Shown piece after piece: positions 2,615 to 7,468 of a stretch of DNA of 7,468 nt. The DNA comes from Solobacterium sp. (lineage in GTDB: Bacteria > Bacillota_I > Bacilli_A > Erysipelotrichales > Erysipelotrichaceae), in assembly GCA_016280695.1 (NCBI GenBank), contig JAEEHG010000042.1, positions 1 to 7,468 of the forward strand, given 5' to 3'. Both the position numbers and the translations under genes were made by a program. Under the pieces are notes generated by a model, which saw nothing but the letters and a program-made list of their open reading frames with translations, ran no database searches and was not told the origin of the DNA. The stretch's first letter is position 1. Each line of letters opens with the position of its first letter.

Positions 2615-3436
2615 ATGAAGTATACGTACGAGTTTTTTCAGGAAACGGCTGACTATCTGAAGCGTGTCCTGCCGGATACGCCGGAGGTGGGCCTGGTGCT
2701 GGGCTCGGCGCTGGGACCGTTTGCGGATACCATTGAAAACCCGGTTGTGATCGACTACAGCGAGATTCCGAACTTCCTGCTGTCCACGGTGGAATCCCAT
2801 GCCGGCAAACTGATCTACGGCACGGTAGCGGGGAAGAAAGTACTGTGCATGTCCGGCCGGTTTCACTATTATGAAGGCTACGACTTTGAGCAGCTGGTCA
2901 TCCCGGTGCGCATGTTCAAACTGATGGGGGTAAAGGCACTGATCCTGACCAACGCGGCCGGCGCGGTCAACTTGGAATACAGGCCGGGCGATATCATGGT
3001 GGTCAGTGACCATATCAAACTGAACGGGGCCAGTCCGCTGCGGGGCCCGAATATCCGGGAGTTCGGCGACCGGTTCTTCGATATGAGCCGGGCATACGAT
3101 CCGGACCTGAGAAAGCTGGCGCTGGCCTGCGCGGAGGGCATTGACCTGCAGGTACATGAGGGCGTGTACATGTTCTTCCCGGGCCCGCAGTTTGAAACCC
3201 CGGCGGAGATCCGGGCGGCCCGTGTGCTCGGTGCGGACGCGGTCGGCATGTCCACGGTAACGGAAGCCATCACGGCGGCACACTGTCATCTGCCGGTGCT
3301 GTGTCTTTCGGTGATGACCAACATGGCCGCGGGCATTCTCGGCCGGCCGCTGACCACGGACGAGGTCGATGAAGTGGGCAGAACCATCGCCGAACGCTTC
3401 AGCATCTATGTGACAAAGATCATCAGCAATATCTGA
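2615..3436 (+). CDS. punA: Purine nucleoside phosphorylase, trimeric (PNP-I / inosine-guanosine) type
   Basis: A cytosolic enzyme of purine salvage that splits inosine or guanosine (and deoxy forms) with phosphate into free base and (deoxy)ribose-1-phosphate. The 273-residue length matches the low-molecular-mass homotrimeric class, not the hexameric DeoD class. Motifs from ATG 2615: phosphate-binding GSALG (30-34, commonly GSGLG), GRFHYYEG (81-88) with the conserved His, NAAG (113-116), SDHI (131-134), FETPAEIR (193-200) with the base-contacting Glu, VGMSTVTEA (210-218) and VMTNMAAG (233-240), whose Asn contacts 6-oxopurines. All active-site blocks are present, so it should be active. It is transcribed alone, diverging from the GNAT gene, and is closed off by a strong terminator before the potassium operon. 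The symbol follows Bacillus/Clostridia usage (punA, also pupG or deoD2). Confidence 0.94.
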   Translation: MKYTYEFFQETADYLKRVLPDTPEVGLVLGSALGPFADTIENPVVIDYSEIPNFLLSTVESHAGKLIYGTVAGKKVLCMSGRFHYYEGYDFEQLVIPVRMFKLMGVKALILTNAAGAVNLEYRPGDIMVVSDHIKLNGASPLRGPNIREFGDRFFDMSRAYDPDLRKLALACAEGIDLQVHEGVYMFFPGPQFETPAEIRAARVLGADAVGMSTVTEAITAAHCHLPVLCLSVMTNMAAGILGRPLTTDEVDEVGRTIAERFSIYVTKIISNI

Positions 3437-3461
3437 ATCATGAACAGGGACAGACAGTCCG

Positions 3462-3485
3462 GCAGGAAGCGATTCCTGCTTTTTT
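3462..3485 (+). terminator. Intrinsic terminator of the PNP gene
   Basis: GCAGGAA and TTCCTGC make a perfect 7-bp stem around a GCGA tetraloop, followed at once by six T residues. It lies 25 bases after the PNP stop and insulates the gene from the potassium operon. Confidence 0.92.
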
Positions 3486-3531
3486 AATGCCGATTTAATG
3501 TCAGGAACCGTACTTTAATCCCGATTTAACG
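3483..3531 (+). promoter_or_regulatory. Double direct repeat, putative OmpR/PhoB-type response-regulator operator for the ktr operon
   Basis: Two 18-base blocks, TTTAATGCCGATTTAATG (3483-3500) and TTTAATCCCGATTTAACG (3514-3531), match at 16 of 18 positions and are offset by 31 bp. Each block contains two TTTAA(T/C) half-sites 11 bp apart, so half-sites begin at 3483, 3494, 3514 and 3525. Direct half-sites at 10-11 bp are what OmpR/PhoB-family winged-helix dimers bind, for example PhoB and Bacillus PhoP boxes. The block lies between the PNP terminator and the ktrB start, where an operator for that operon belongs. A KdpD-type kinase is encoded in the same operon, so a KdpE-like regulator is the obvious candidate. 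TTTAAT also resembles a -10 box, which is an alternative explanation for one copy; a possible -10 after the repeats is CAGAAT at 3542-3547. Confidence 0.6.
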
Positions 3532-3547
3532 TGATTCGGGGCAGAAT

Positions 3548-4912
3548 GTGGGCATGGGAAAACAGTCAATGATGCAGAAAATGCGGATTTATATCCACGA
3601 TCATATGAACTCTTTCCGGACGATCCTGCTGGGTTTCTGCCTGCTGATTCTGGGCGGGGCCGTGCTGCTGAGCATGCCGTTTGCGTCGGCCAGCGGGGAA
3701 TCCGTACCGTTTATCGATGCGCTGTTTACGTCCGTGTCGGCTTCCTGCGTAACCGGGCTGGTGGTCTATGATACAGCGGTGCAGTGGTCACTGGCCGGAC
3801 GGACCATCATCCTGATCCTGATCCAGATCGGCGGCCTGGGCGTGATTACCCTGGCGACCGTGACCCTGATCCTGACCGGGAGGCAGATCGGCATTATGCA
3901 GAGAACCGTCATGCAGGACGCGATCTCGGCCCCGCAGCTGGGCGGCATTCTGCGGCTGACGGTATTCTTCCTGAAAGGCACCCTGCTGATCGAAGGGCTC
4001 GGGGCGGCCCTGCTGACGCCGGTGTTCGCGGAGAAGTACGGCCTGCTGAACGGCTTCGGGCATGCGGTGTTCCATTCTGTCTCGGCCTTCTGCAATGCCG
4101 GCTTTGACCTGATGGGGGCAGAGCAGCCATTTGCTTCCCTGACCGGCTGGGCCGGGGATGCGCGGGTCAACCTGGTCATCATGTTCCTGATTGTGACCGG
4201 CGGCCTCGGGTTTTTGACCTGGCAGGATCTGCTGCGGTGCCGCGGCCGGTTCAGCAAGCTGGCCCTGCAGACGAAAGTCATCCTGGCCACGACGGGGGTG
4301 CTGCTGCTGATCCCGTTCCTGTACTTCTATTTCCTGGAATTCAGAAATGCTCCGGACGGTGAAAGACTGCTGCTGGCGATGTTCCAGACTGTTACCCCCC
4401 GTACTGCCGGCTTCAGCACAACTGACTACGCCGCAATGTCCGAAGGCGGGCTGCTGGTGACGATTGTGCTGATGCTGACAGGCGGGGCCCCGGGCTCCAC
4501 AGCCGGCGGCATGAAAGTGACTACGGTATATATCGTTGCCCTGTCCGTCGCGTCATTCCTCCGGCGCCGGGAAAATGTCAGCTGTTTCAGCCGGCGGATT
4601 GAAGAGGAAACCGTACGGGAAGCGATGTACATCATGGTGCTGTATCTGAGCCTGCTGTTCCTGGGGTCGGTCGCGGTATCCGCGGCGGAGCAGATCCCGG
4701 TGCTGCCGGCCATGTTCGAATGTGCTTCGGCACTGGGGACGGTGGGCCTGACCACCGGCATCACCCCGGGGCTGTCCGCATTCTCAAAGATCATACTGAT
4801 TCTGTTCATGTACGCGGGCCGGGTCGGCGGACTGACGCTGGCTTATGCGATGGCCCTGCCGGGCCGGCGGGAGAAGAGCCGGTTCCCGGTCGGCAAGGTT
4901 GCCGTAGGATAG
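3548..4912 (+). CDS. ktrB: KtrB/TrkH-family potassium uptake channel subunit
   Basis: Membrane subunit of a Ktr-type K+ (Na+-influenced) uptake system, in the superfamily of K+ transporters built from four M1-P-M2 repeats. Selectivity-filter glycines are visible in each pore loop: CVTGL (67-71), CNAGF (182-186), RTAGF (285-289) and TVGLTTG (398-404). The intramembrane gating segment GGAPGSTAGGMK (312-323) is intact, as is GRVGGLT near the C-terminus (424-430). The 454-residue length fits KtrB better than TrkH, and the partner is a single-RCK KtrA-like protein, not a double-RCK TrkA. Start is uncertain: GTG 3548 has GGGG six bases upstream; ATG 3554, 3569 and 3572 are alternatives, all before the first membrane segment at about residue 23. 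The stop codon overlaps the ribosome binding site of ktrA. First gene of the operon, directly behind the double repeat. Confidence 0.93.
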   Translation: MGMGKQSMMQKMRIYIHDHMNSFRTILLGFCLLILGGAVLLSMPFASASGESVPFIDALFTSVSASCVTGLVVYDTAVQWSLAGRTIILILIQIGGLGVITLATVTLILTGRQIGIMQRTVMQDAISAPQLGGILRLTVFFLKGTLLIEGLGAALLTPVFAEKYGLLNGFGHAVFHSVSAFCNAGFDLMGAEQPFASLTGWAGDARVNLVIMFLIVTGGLGFLTWQDLLRCRGRFSKLALQTKVILATTGVLLLIPFLYFYFLEFRNAPDGERLLLAMFQTVTPRTAGFSTTDYAAMSEGGLLVTIVLMLTGGAPGSTAGGMKVTTVYIVALSVASFLRRRENVSCFSRRIEEETVREAMYIMVLYLSLLFLGSVAVSAAEQIPVLPAMFECASALGTVGLTTGITPGLSAFSKIILILFMYAGRVGGLTLAYAMALPGRREKSRFPVGKVAVG

Positions 4913-4919: not shown

Positions 4920-5576
4920 ATGAAAAACATACTGATTATCGGGGCCGGAAGGTTCGGCCGCTATACTGCCATGAAACTGCATGATCTCGGTCATCAGATC
5001 CTGGCTGTGGATAAGGATGAGGAACGGATCAACAAGATCCTGCCGTATGTGTCCAAAGCCCAGATCGGCGACAGTACGGACAGCGGTTATATGTCCACCC
5101 TGGGCATCAGGGACTTCGACCTGTGCATCGTGGCGATCGGGGATGACTTCCTGAGTTCCCTGGAAACCACCTTCCTGCTGGATGAACTGGGGGCCCGCAA
5201 GATCATTGCCCGGGCGACCACGGGGTCCCAGGAAAAGTTCCTGCTGCGCAACGGGGCCTCGGCGGTGGTGTTCCCGGAGCGGGAACTGGGCAGCTGGACA
5301 GCCATCCGCTACAGTTCGGACCAGATCTACAACTATATCGAAATGCCTGACGGCTACGCCATTGTGGAAACCGGTATTCCGGCATCCTGGGACGGGAAAA
5401 AGATCGGTGAACTGGATGTCCGGGGCCGGTACGGGGTGAATATCCTCGGGATCTGCCATGGCAGTATGGATATGAATGTTACATCCGAAACAGTCCTGCA
5501 TGCGGATGAACACATGCTGGTCCTGGGCCGGATCGAAGTGATACAGAAACAGTTTCTTACGGAACGGAAAGGATAG
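4920..5576 (+). CDS. ktrA: KtrA-type RCK regulatory subunit of potassium transporter
   Basis: Cytosolic gating subunit that in known systems forms an octameric ring under the KtrB dimer and opens it on ATP and closes it on ADP. The N-terminal RCK_N Rossmann domain (about 1-125) shows the dinucleotide motif GAGRFG (8-13), the acidic residue ending strand 2 (Asp31 in AVDKDEE) and GDSTD (50-54). The RCK_C (TrkA_C) domain spans about 135-215, with IPASWDGKKIGELDVRGRYG (153-172) as its conserved opening. In Firmicutes this domain is a known cyclic-di-AMP receptor that inhibits uptake; whether this copy binds it is inference. The 218-residue length is normal for KtrA. Start ATG 4920 is set by AGGAG. 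It is seven bases after ktrB and three bases before the next gene. Confidence 0.94.
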   Translation: MKNILIIGAGRFGRYTAMKLHDLGHQILAVDKDEERINKILPYVSKAQIGDSTDSGYMSTLGIRDFDLCIVAIGDDFLSSLETTFLLDELGARKIIARATTGSQEKFLLRNGASAVVFPERELGSWTAIRYSSDQIYNYIEMPDGYAIVETGIPASWDGKKIGELDVRGRYGVNILGICHGSMDMNVTSETVLHADEHMLVLGRIEVIQKQFLTERKG

Positions 5577-5579
5577 TAT

Positions 5580-6044
5580 ATGAAAGACATGATCATGGTA
5601 CTTGGCCTGCTCGTCATCCTCGTACTGGTCGTTGACCGGATGATCAGAAAGATGCCGGGAATGCTGTTCCCGGAGGAAACGGCAGACAACACAAAGCGGG
5701 TCATGGTAGATGATGTTCTGTTCCTGCAGAAGATCAGGAAGTACATCAAGCCGTCGGATTATACGGTGTTTACCGGGCACAGCGGTGAAGTGGTCCGGGA
5801 AATGAACCGCCGTCAGGCAGACATGGTGGTTGTTGACAGCGGGCTGGCCGATGAAGTGCAGGCAGACTTTCTTAACCACATGACAGCCTATTACTATGCT
5901 ACGGCACTGGAAATCAACGGGTACCCGGCAGCGGTCCTGCCCCTGGCCAGGCGTCCGCGTTCAGTGGAAATCTACTATAAAGATGATATGCAGCCGATGA
6001 TTGAGAACCTGCTGAACAGCGGGATCATTACAAGAGCGTCCTGA
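5580..6044 (+). CDS. Unrecognised membrane-anchored protein in potassium operon
   Basis: I do not recognise this 154-residue protein. One hydrophobic segment at residues 4-18 is followed by a basic stretch (DRMIRKM, 19-25), so the positive-inside rule predicts that the rest faces the cytosol. The soluble part (about 38-154) alternates predicted helix and strand: VDDVLFLQKIRKYI (43-56), TVFTGHSGEVVREM (62-75), ADMVVVDSG (80-88), an aromatic YYYATALEINGY stretch (104-115) and VEIYYKDD (129-136). This suggests a small alpha/beta domain, but no catalytic motif stands out. There is no Walker A or phosphoacceptor motif, so it is not the missing N-terminal KdpD domain. AAGGA (5569-5573) six bases before ATG 5580 supports the start; it follows ktrA by three bases. 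Placement between transporter and sensor kinase suggests an accessory to one of them. Confidence 0.85.
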   Translation: MKDMIMVLGLLVILVLVVDRMIRKMPGMLFPEETADNTKRVMVDDVLFLQKIRKYIKPSDYTVFTGHSGEVVREMNRRQADMVVVDSGLADEVQADFLNHMTAYYYATALEINGYPAAVLPLARRPRSVEIYYKDDMQPMIENLLNSGIITRAS

Positions 6045-6055
6045 TACGGTACAAT
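6027..6055 (+). promoter_or_regulatory. Possible internal promoter before the sensor kinase
   Basis: ATTACA (6027-6032) and TACAAT (6050-6055) are spaced by 17 bases and match the sigma-A consensus at 4/6 and 5/6. Transcription would begin near 6062, just before ATG 6063. It overlaps coding sequence of the preceding gene and the first kinase codon, so chance is a real possibility. Confidence 0.25.
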
Positions 6056-7468
6056 GAGCATAATGACTGAACTGGAAAACAGAAACGGGCCGGCGGTTAT
6101 GGTATGTCTTTCCGGCTCACCCAGCTGTCAGCGGGTGATTCGGGCGGCAGCCCGCCTGGTGACTGCCGATACAGCCATTGCCGTGGCCTTGTATGTCCGG
6201 CCGGCAGGGCAGGATGAAAGCAAGGATTATCAGCTGCAGGACAATTTCCGCTTTGCCCGGCAAAATGGTTTTGATGTGCAGACTCTGACCAGCGCCGATA
6301 TCCCGCTTTCCATTTCGGAATATGCCAAACGGCTGAAAATCACTGACCTGTTTGTCGGCAGCTCGGCGCCGCAGCATCTGTTCCAGCCCCGGCGTTCCAT
6401 GGGTGAAAGACTGATGAACTACCTGCCGGAGACGGATATTCACATCATCCCCGACAGCCGGGCCTCCGGCGCGGCCAGACTGCCGGAAGGCAAATCCCGG
6501 CCTGTCTGGAACATCCGGGACTTCCTGACGGTTGTGCTGATCATGACGGTGTCCACACTGCTGTCGGTCTGGTTTGACCAGTCCCGCTTCAGCAACGCGA
6601 ATATCATCACAATCTACCTGCTGGCTGTACTGGTGGCGTCACTGCTGACCTCACATCAGTTTTTCGGGATCCTGGCAGCGGTGCTGTATATCCTGCTGTT
6701 CAATTTCCTGTTTATTGATCCGCGCTTTACCCTGCTGGTGTATGACCCGGAATACCTGGTGACGTATCTGGTCACGCTGGCAGCAGCCCTGATCACCAGT
6801 TCGCTGGCGATCCGGATGAAGAACATTGCCCGGATCTCGGCAGAAAACGCCTATCAGGCCCGGGTCCTGCTGAGCACGACGGAACAGCTGGAACAGGCCG
6901 GTACTGCTGACGATATCATGCAGGTGCTCTGCCTGCAGCTCAAACATCTGCTGAACCGGACGATCCGGTTCTACAGTCCGGATAATATTACCGGGCTGCC
7001 GGAGATTTACGCGGCTGATGATCAGGAGCCGGATCTCAGGCATTTGCAGAAGGAAAAGGATGCCGTGCAGTGGACGTTTGTGAACGATCATCACTCCGGG
7101 GCGTATACCTCGCATTTCCCGGATTATCTCAGCCGGTATTTCAGTCTGTATTCAGATGATCACAGCTACGGGGTCATCGGCGTGGAAATGAACGGGCGCA
7201 ATTTTACGGATTTTGAAAGCACCATCCTGCAGTCCATTGTGCATGAGGGGATCATGGCCCTGGACAAGGAACGGATTGACCGGGAACGCAATGATGCCCG
7301 GGCTGCGGCCGAAAAGGAACGGCTGCGGGCCGGCCTGCTCCGATCACTGTCCCACGACCTGCGTACACCTTTGACTTCCATCAGCGGCAATGCGGCTAAC
7401 CTGGCGGCCATGGCGGATGCCATGAGCCCGGAAGACCGGCAGCGCATCTATGAGGACATGGAGGAGGA
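6054..7468 (+). CDS. kdpD: Short KdpD-type sensor histidine kinase (USP-DUF4118-GAF-HisKA), 3'-truncated by the window edge
   Basis: Sensor kinase of the K+-responsive KdpDE family; it autophosphorylates and feeds an OmpR-type KdpE regulator. Domains from ATG 6054: a universal-stress-protein domain (about 14-135; VCLSGSPSC at 17-25 and FVGSSA further on), four membrane segments of the DUF4118 module (about 157-174, 184-200, 204-221, 235-254), a poorly conserved GAF-like region (about 265-395), a helical linker, and HisKA with SHDLRTPLT and phosphoacceptor His434. The ATPase domain lies beyond the window. The N-terminal KdpD domain with its Walker motifs, normally before the USP domain, is absent. 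SxS and AxY residues spaced as in c-di-AMP-binding KdpD are present. Start is ATG 6054 or 6063; neither has a clear ribosome binding site. It begins nine bases after, and in the same frame as, the preceding gene. A kdpE is expected downstream. Confidence 0.9.
   Translation, partial: MSIMTELENRNGPAVMVCLSGSPSCQRVIRAAARLVTADTAIAVALYVRPAGQDESKDYQLQDNFRFARQNGFDVQTLTSADIPLSISEYAKRLKITDLFVGSSAPQHLFQPRRSMGERLMNYLPETDIHIIPDSRASGAARLPEGKSRPVWNIRDFLTVVLIMTVSTLLSVWFDQSRFSNANIITIYLLAVLVASLLTSHQFFGILAAVLYILLFNFLFIDPRFTLLVYDPEYLVTYLVTLAAALITSSLAIRMKNIARISAENAYQARVLLSTTEQLEQAGTADDIMQVLCLQLKHLLNRTIRFYSPDNITGLPEIYAADDQEPDLRHLQKEKDAVQWTFVNDHHSGAYTSHFPDYLSRYFSLYSDDHSYGVIGVEMNGRNFTDFESTILQSIVHEGIMALDKERIDRERNDARAAAEKERLRAGLLRSLSHDLRTPLTSISGNAANLAAMADAMSPEDRQRIYEDMEE

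Follow-up and report, generated by a model that had tools for sequence, protein, structure and literature searches.

Which regulator acts on the four TTTAA(T/C) words that precede the potassium transporter gene ktrB in a Solobacterium genome, and which potassium transporter does the KdpD-type kinase encoded behind ktrB serve? The window, meaning the whole stretch of 7,468 nucleotides analysed, is an entire contig (C79) of the source assembly (1.74 Mb, 77% complete) and carries the following genes:

3554..4912, + strand: ktrB, TrkH family K+ transporter subunit (start at ATG 3554 or at ATG 3569/3572)
4920..5576, + strand: ktrA, with domain matches to TrkA_N and TrkA_C
5580..6044, + strand: 154-aa protein, predicted to have one membrane helix and a LysR-effector/periplasmic-binding-like domain
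6054..7468, + strand: kdpD-type kinase, its gene running off the contig end (DUF4118, HisKA; no N-terminal PF02702)

The structure of the 154-aa protein gave no Foldseek match at E ≤ 0.001. A syntenic contig of genome G019 (L033; KtrB 98% identical) has the same gene order and encodes, farther on, a 649-aa KdpD followed by a 242-aa regulator of the OmpR family (kdpE), the complete kinase adding HATPase_c and a weak, below-cut-off match to Usp. KdpE is missing from the source assembly (0 matches at E ≤ 1e-60) and its identity is taken from G019. KdpA is absent from the same assembly and was found, as fragments, in only 1 of 35 genomes of the genus; KdpDE therefore most likely serves Ktr here. 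The records of KtrB relatives are from Solobacterium/Erysipelotrichaceae, with the more distant ones from the Lachnospiraceae, Oscillospiraceae, and others. In L142 (8779-9789) a reverse-transcriptase ORF sits between ktrA and kdpD, by eye of group II intron type and seemingly an insertion into the operon.

The words upstream of ktrB, all on the + strand, are TTTAAT at 3483, 3494, and 3514 and TTTAAC at 3525, with spacings of 11, 20, and 11, and the 18-mers at 3483-3500 and 3514-3531 are identical at 16/18 positions at an offset of 31; the sequence-only reading had reported the same words, spacings, and blocks, and all were exact on recomputation. The words form two boxes within a predicted promoter frame:

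3461..3485, + strand: putative intrinsic terminator, a hairpin behind the preceding gene for purine nucleoside phosphorylase (8-pair stem at 3461-3480, T tail; -12 kcal/mol, z -2.8)
3483..3499, + strand: box 1 (TTTAAT 3483-3488, TTTAAT 3494-3499; predicted -71 to -55)
3514..3530, + strand: box 2 (TTTAAT 3514-3519, TTTAAC 3525-3530; predicted -40 to -24, occupying the -35 place)
3542..3547, + strand: predicted -10, CAGAAT (4/6 match; 11 bp past the last half-site; predicted +1 at 3554)

The T-run of this hairpin extends into the first half-site and takes in three bases of it, 3483-3485. TTTAAY occurs four times in total on the + strand of the window, and these four occurrences are the array itself (hereafter, the quad). 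When 3437-3571 was shuffled 5,000 times with dinucleotides preserved, no 18-mer repeat at an offset of 18-60 exceeded 15/18 and none equalled the real repeat, and the window holds no further 18-mer pair of that quality within 60 bp, bar the same repeat shifted by one base. Across the assembly, TTTAAT-N5-TTTAAY was found twice, both times at the site upstream of ktrB (reversed-pattern control, 0). A looser single pair, YTTWAY-N5-YTTWAY, matched 8 times in the same genome compared to 13 for its control; because single pairs are at background, the signal is carried by the quad only.

Conservation was assessed from 117 sequences, comprising the window, 36 stretches (mainly the better KtrB matches in the genome table, plus a minority of the weaker ones), and the best 80 of at least 581 relatives. 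After 12 were dropped (one partial locus and 11 near-duplicates, including the window because it duplicates L033), the remaining 105 loci were divided into 62 linked (kdpD and/or kdpE ≤7 kb downstream), 30 unlinked, and 13 cut (contig ends within 3.5 kb). The quad was scored as four YTTWAY half-sites at 11-S-11 (S = 20-22; maximum 24), a model widened from YTTAAY after clostridial sequences had been seen. Within 700 bp of ktrB, ≥22/24 was reached at 58/62 linked loci, 0/30 unlinked loci, and 0/2,100 shuffles (Fisher 3e-20), and ≥21/24 at 62/62, 2/30, and 4/2,100, respectively (Fisher 1e-21), while within 200 bp the counts for ≥22/24 were 56/62, 0/30, and 1/2,100. The stricter YTTAAY model (S 19-22, 200 bp, duplicates kept) gave ≥20 in 61/71 linked and 0/30 unlinked loci. 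'Linked' was kept as first defined and includes L161 and L065, whose regulators are just 43% identical; L101 and L065 failed the 200-bp scan, the quad lying farther upstream there (313 bp; before an extra gene). The within-box spacing was 11 in 56/62 loci, with any other spacing from 7 to 16 seen in at most seven, and the box offset peaked at S = 20 (42) and S = 21 (22). An apparent secondary peak was seen at S = 31/32 (8/62 each).

Judged by this conservation, the site upstream of ktrB is a real and strongly conserved regulatory site; lack of the repeat in orthologous ktrB upstream regions had been named beforehand as evidence that would overturn the proposal, and the comparison, once run, found the repeat conserved. 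As the quad recurs across dozens of remote relatives where kdpDE is adjacent and not in the examined loci without it, it is likely a KdpE switch. Six of the 13 cut loci reached 22 within 700 bp. Another cut locus, in G011 (L039; KtrB 62% identical; genome 92% complete), had no quad, no kdpD in the 2.9 kb downstream, and no KdpE match in the genome at E ≤ 1e-60. The unlinked loci scoring 21 were L126 and L144. Upstream of the L126 ktrB a partial quad is accompanied by TATAAT at gap 11; this quad may be real, and KdpE may act on it from a kdpDE pair located at another site of that genome.

The distribution of the quad beyond ktrB follows the regulator genes. In 60 whole genomes, the TTAAY quad matched 26 times, compared to one match for the reversed control, and these 26 comprised 21 before ktrB, one before ktrA-kdpDE (G005), two at TPR loci (G059 and G009), and two unexplained. 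That the arrays are chance or generic AT-rich promoter sequence, T-rich words being common upstream of genes, was set against the shuffle and unlinked-locus controls, the near absence of reversed matches, and the conservation at orthologous loci, and its probability is close to nil. In G005 the operator precedes ktrA-kdpDE and none was found before the distant ktrB (L058), and the quad also precedes kdpA in G038, G043, and G054. In G040, G045, and G058, ktrBA and kdpDE are divergent with one operator facing each unit, and in G059, from another family, the quad separates kdpD from a divergently oriented unit of a TPR gene and kdpA. On these placements, the putative operator is one that moves with the regulator genes.

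Several loci add observations of their own. Back-to-back two-box operators, one in each direction, lie between divergent ktrBA and kdpDE in L197, L198, and L203, the kdpD of L203 matching in three pieces, perhaps frameshifted. A small TPR protein is encoded directly behind the operator in G009 (L073/L182) and G059 (L070/L183), with an opposing ORF as neighbour in the former and kdpA downstream in the latter; the two TPR genes are homologous and are possible members of a KdpE regulon. The exact quads of G051 (L069) and G029 (L083) have no visible link to potassium genes and are probably chance in AT-rich DNA. No filter-passing quad was present in the stretches examined around kdpDE genes located away from ktrB/kdpA in G002 (L195) and G009 (L196), and none in the stretches, cut by contig ends, around the second kdpDE pair of G021 (L199) and the kdpDE of G016 (L200). 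The G002 genome has zero exact quads, and the 14 kb around its kdpDE (L195) contain neither ktrB nor kdpA nor a quad. The kdpA fragments of G009 (L180, L181, and L205) were likewise without one, as were 6 of the 10 plasmid kdp promoters examined (among 40 of 461 matching records), five of the six (L187, L188, L191-L194) from alphaproteobacteria and one from Deinococcus.

The regulator itself has some features of a KdpE. The closest PDB chains to the G019 protein are 6lgq (named DNA-binding response regulator) and 4kny (named KdpE), the latter of which we take to be the E. coli protein, and of the NCBIfam models KdpE scores highest, at 193.6 bits, which is below its cut-off of 325. E. coli Arg193, Arg200, and Thr215 (residue numbers mapped onto the 4kny chain as index minus 2) correspond to Arg, Arg, and Thr of the regulator in the alignment, and by eye the equivalents are present in 56/56 complete KdpEs of linked loci, two further proteins being cut short. 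Arg193 is described in the available part of PMC3264566 as conserved solely among orthologs of KdpE, which requires it to bind DNA. KdpE is thus the likely binder, as indicated by linkage, mobility, half-site resemblance, and recognition residues.

CiaR sites of streptococci, TTTAAG-N5-TTTAAG, share the TTTAA core and the 11-bp repeat with the quad, while the sixth base is Y here and G in CiaR and the operator here is tied to kdpDE; with sixth bases of T, T, T, and C, the site in the window was rejected as a CiaR site. Another OmpR/PhoB-family regulator, for example of the CiaR type, could still bind, with the kdpDE linkage incidental, given that the half-site and 11-bp repeat are typical of the family and that C. 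difficile RR_1586 prefers TTAAG repeats 11 bp apart (PMC6222199, available text). Binding by such a regulator is very improbable, however, as presence of the quad follows that of kdpDE over 92 loci (62 linked plus 30 unlinked), the operator goes with kdpDE and kdpA when the genes move, and few half-sites have G as their sixth base (box 1, 2% and 0%; box 2, 2% and 10%).

The ktr-linked kinases differ in one domain. PF02702 was absent in 7 of the 11 scanned (L033, L037, L045, L054, L061, L065, and L104) and present in 4 (L116, L131, L141, and L150). Serine-kinase control of the Kdp pump is assigned to this domain in the accessible portion of PMC11018627, and its loss where Ktr is the target is therefore suggestive: PF02702 loss may go with Ktr as the target, though some ktr-linked kinases keep the domain.

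Downstream of the quad the promoter frame is nearly invariant. Across 63 aligned operators (the 62 linked loci and the window), the best -10 hexamer (nearest TATAAT) followed the fourth half-site at a gap of exactly 11 bp in 60 cases and of 10 bp in three, in a search that tried gaps of 6-19, broke ties towards 11, and concerned operators found without use of the -10; a strict -10 test at gap 11 was passed by 56/63. A -35 sought in the same operators matched TTGACA at no more than 3/6 with spacers of 16-18 in 59/63, and a sigma-70 scan of 3380-3620 found no promoter because no -35 is present. The predicted frame is that of a promoter whose activator occupies the -35 place, and the layout of a PhoB-like class II activator, a direct repeat replacing the -35 at a fixed distance from the -10, was found at the level of the sequence frame. 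PhoB pho boxes (pstS type) are TGTCA(T/C) direct repeats, spaced by 11 bp, that replace the -35 as tandem adjacent boxes. The quad shares with them the 11-bp direct repeats in the -35 place, the end ~10-11 bp before the -10, and the tandem boxes, but its boxes are 31-32 bp apart where those of PhoB are adjacent. The tandem OmpR/PhoB-type geometry put forward from the window alone gains support from the conservation, the kdpDE linkage, and the fixed -10 distance, as does the suggestion that a KdpE-type regulator would feed back onto its own operon.

Very probably, then, the site would be a two-box KdpE operator that recruits RNA polymerase and switches on ktrB-ktrA-154aa-kdpD-kdpE. Two dimers of KdpE, the candidate binder, would bind, one per box; the dimer at box 2 (-40 to -24) would stand in for the -35, in the manner of a pho box bound by PhoB; RNA polymerase would be recruited by KdpE to the predicted -10, 11 bp downstream; and the genes would be activated as one operon that includes the regulator's own. 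The signal would come through KdpD, from low K+ or turgor and perhaps from c-di-AMP at the Usp-like domain. The words, spacing, hairpin, conservation, kdpDE co-occurrence, and fixed -10 distance were computed, and we infer KdpE as the binder, the replacement of the -35 by box 2, the single operon, and activation. The position of box 2 would also suit a KdpE that represses, its dimer covering the -35 region and turning ktrB off, yet there is no -35 worth blocking in 59/63 operators, the near-fixed 11-bp gap to the -10 resembles that of promoters dependent on an activator, and in E. coli KdpE is an activator at the equal box 1 position (PMC2714519 and PMC3264566, parts available), which makes repression improbable.

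The predicted +1 also bears on the start of ktrB. The listed start, GTG 3548, was ruled out because it precedes the predicted +1 at 3554, leaving ATG 3554 (leaderless) or ATG 3569/3572 as candidates, and the latter is not insisted on because it is absent in G006. ATG 3554-3556 is kept in G000, G019, G006, and G020 and coincides with the predicted +1; the ktrB mRNA may be leaderless here. In many of the other relatives ktrB is preceded by a short leader and a Shine-Dalgarno-like stretch. A known type of ktr control is a c-di-AMP riboswitch in the leader, and this was rejected for the window, which had 0 matches in Rfam at gathering thresholds and a predicted leader of just 0-18 nt.

Comparison with E. 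coli corrects one earlier statement, that the half-site matches no known Kdp operator. The E. coli KdpE half-sites are given as TTTATA-N5-TTTACA with a footprint from -72 to -50 (PMC3264566, in its accessible text), and TTTAAY resembles them because the 11-bp layout is equal and YTTWAY, one base in register, covers both, although the letters TTTAA(T/C) and TTTA(T/C)A differ. Clostridial and G015 sites (CTTTATAC) bridge the half-sites of the window and E. coli. The layout of a KdpE site, two 6-bp direct repeats 5 bp apart with leading T's, was found in the window, the two T's (positions 2-3 and 13-14 of box 1 in the YTTWAY register) being kept in 63/63 operators, and box 1 at -71 to -55, relative to a start site predicted from the -10, agrees with the E. 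coli placement. The mycobacterial KdpE site, as it appears in the part of PMC5401905 available, is unlike the quad. The operator is a variant of an already known operator type, sharing with the kdpFABC site of E. coli the 11-bp direct-repeat half-sites, the distance from box 1 to the -10, and probably a KdpE-type regulator, and differing in its TTTAAY half-site, in the proposed control of Ktr rather than the Kdp pump, and in a box 2 that is well-formed here and degraded in E. coli.

With TACCCT as the E. coli -10 (L095), the footprint falls exactly on TTTTATACTTTTTTTACACCCCG, and in the same frame TTTTGC-N5-CTTTGC stands at -40 to -24, 11 bp ahead of TACCCT. This second E. coli box scores 10/12, equally good in 1.0% of shuffles and, with an equal -10, in 0.13%; in the kdp promoters of Pluralibacter, Proteus, Mycetohabitans, and L. 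plantarum, a small set with some related members, box 2 alone was matched in 0.2-2.1% of shuffles. In the available text of PMC2714519, canonical -35 and -10 regions are described as lying downstream of the E. coli KdpE site; a second, unrecognised KdpE box at -40 to -24 of the kdp promoter is possible. Box 1 alone could instead be the KdpE site, with box 2 a degenerate -35 or spacer that KdpE does not contact. Box 1 is the better conserved (12/12 in 53/63 operators compared to 21/63 for box 2), and the E. coli footprint covers its counterpart only. Box 2 nevertheless has half-sites that repeat at 11 bp and an offset that hardly varies, and its E. coli counterpart is still 10/12, so that a single-box site appears rather unlikely.

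In the literature searched (open-licence PubMed Central titles and abstract openings, a set outside which lie the primary papers of 1992 on E. coli and of 2000 on C. acetobutylicum), no earlier description was found of KdpE control of ktr in Firmicutes, with KdpDE wired to ktr through an operator, or of a second KdpE box and the two-box frame. For a wider reading, the case is evenly balanced: canonical KdpE promoters would be two-box, the second dimer replacing the -35, from ktr and kdp in Firmicutes to kdpFABC in E. coli, where box 2 has been read as an ordinary -35, and the Erysipelotrichaceae-type genus, perhaps with many Clostridia, would for the most part have given up the Kdp pump and connected KdpDE to Ktr by way of the same module. 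For E. coli K-12 this raises the question of whether a second KdpE box has gone unnoticed in the kdp promoter, which is directly and cheaply testable. The operator would offer a sequence-level rule for which potassium transporter a given KdpDE system controls, and the prediction is that many Erysipelotrichaceae and Clostridia, whether or not they have a Kdp pump, place Ktr under the control of KdpDE.
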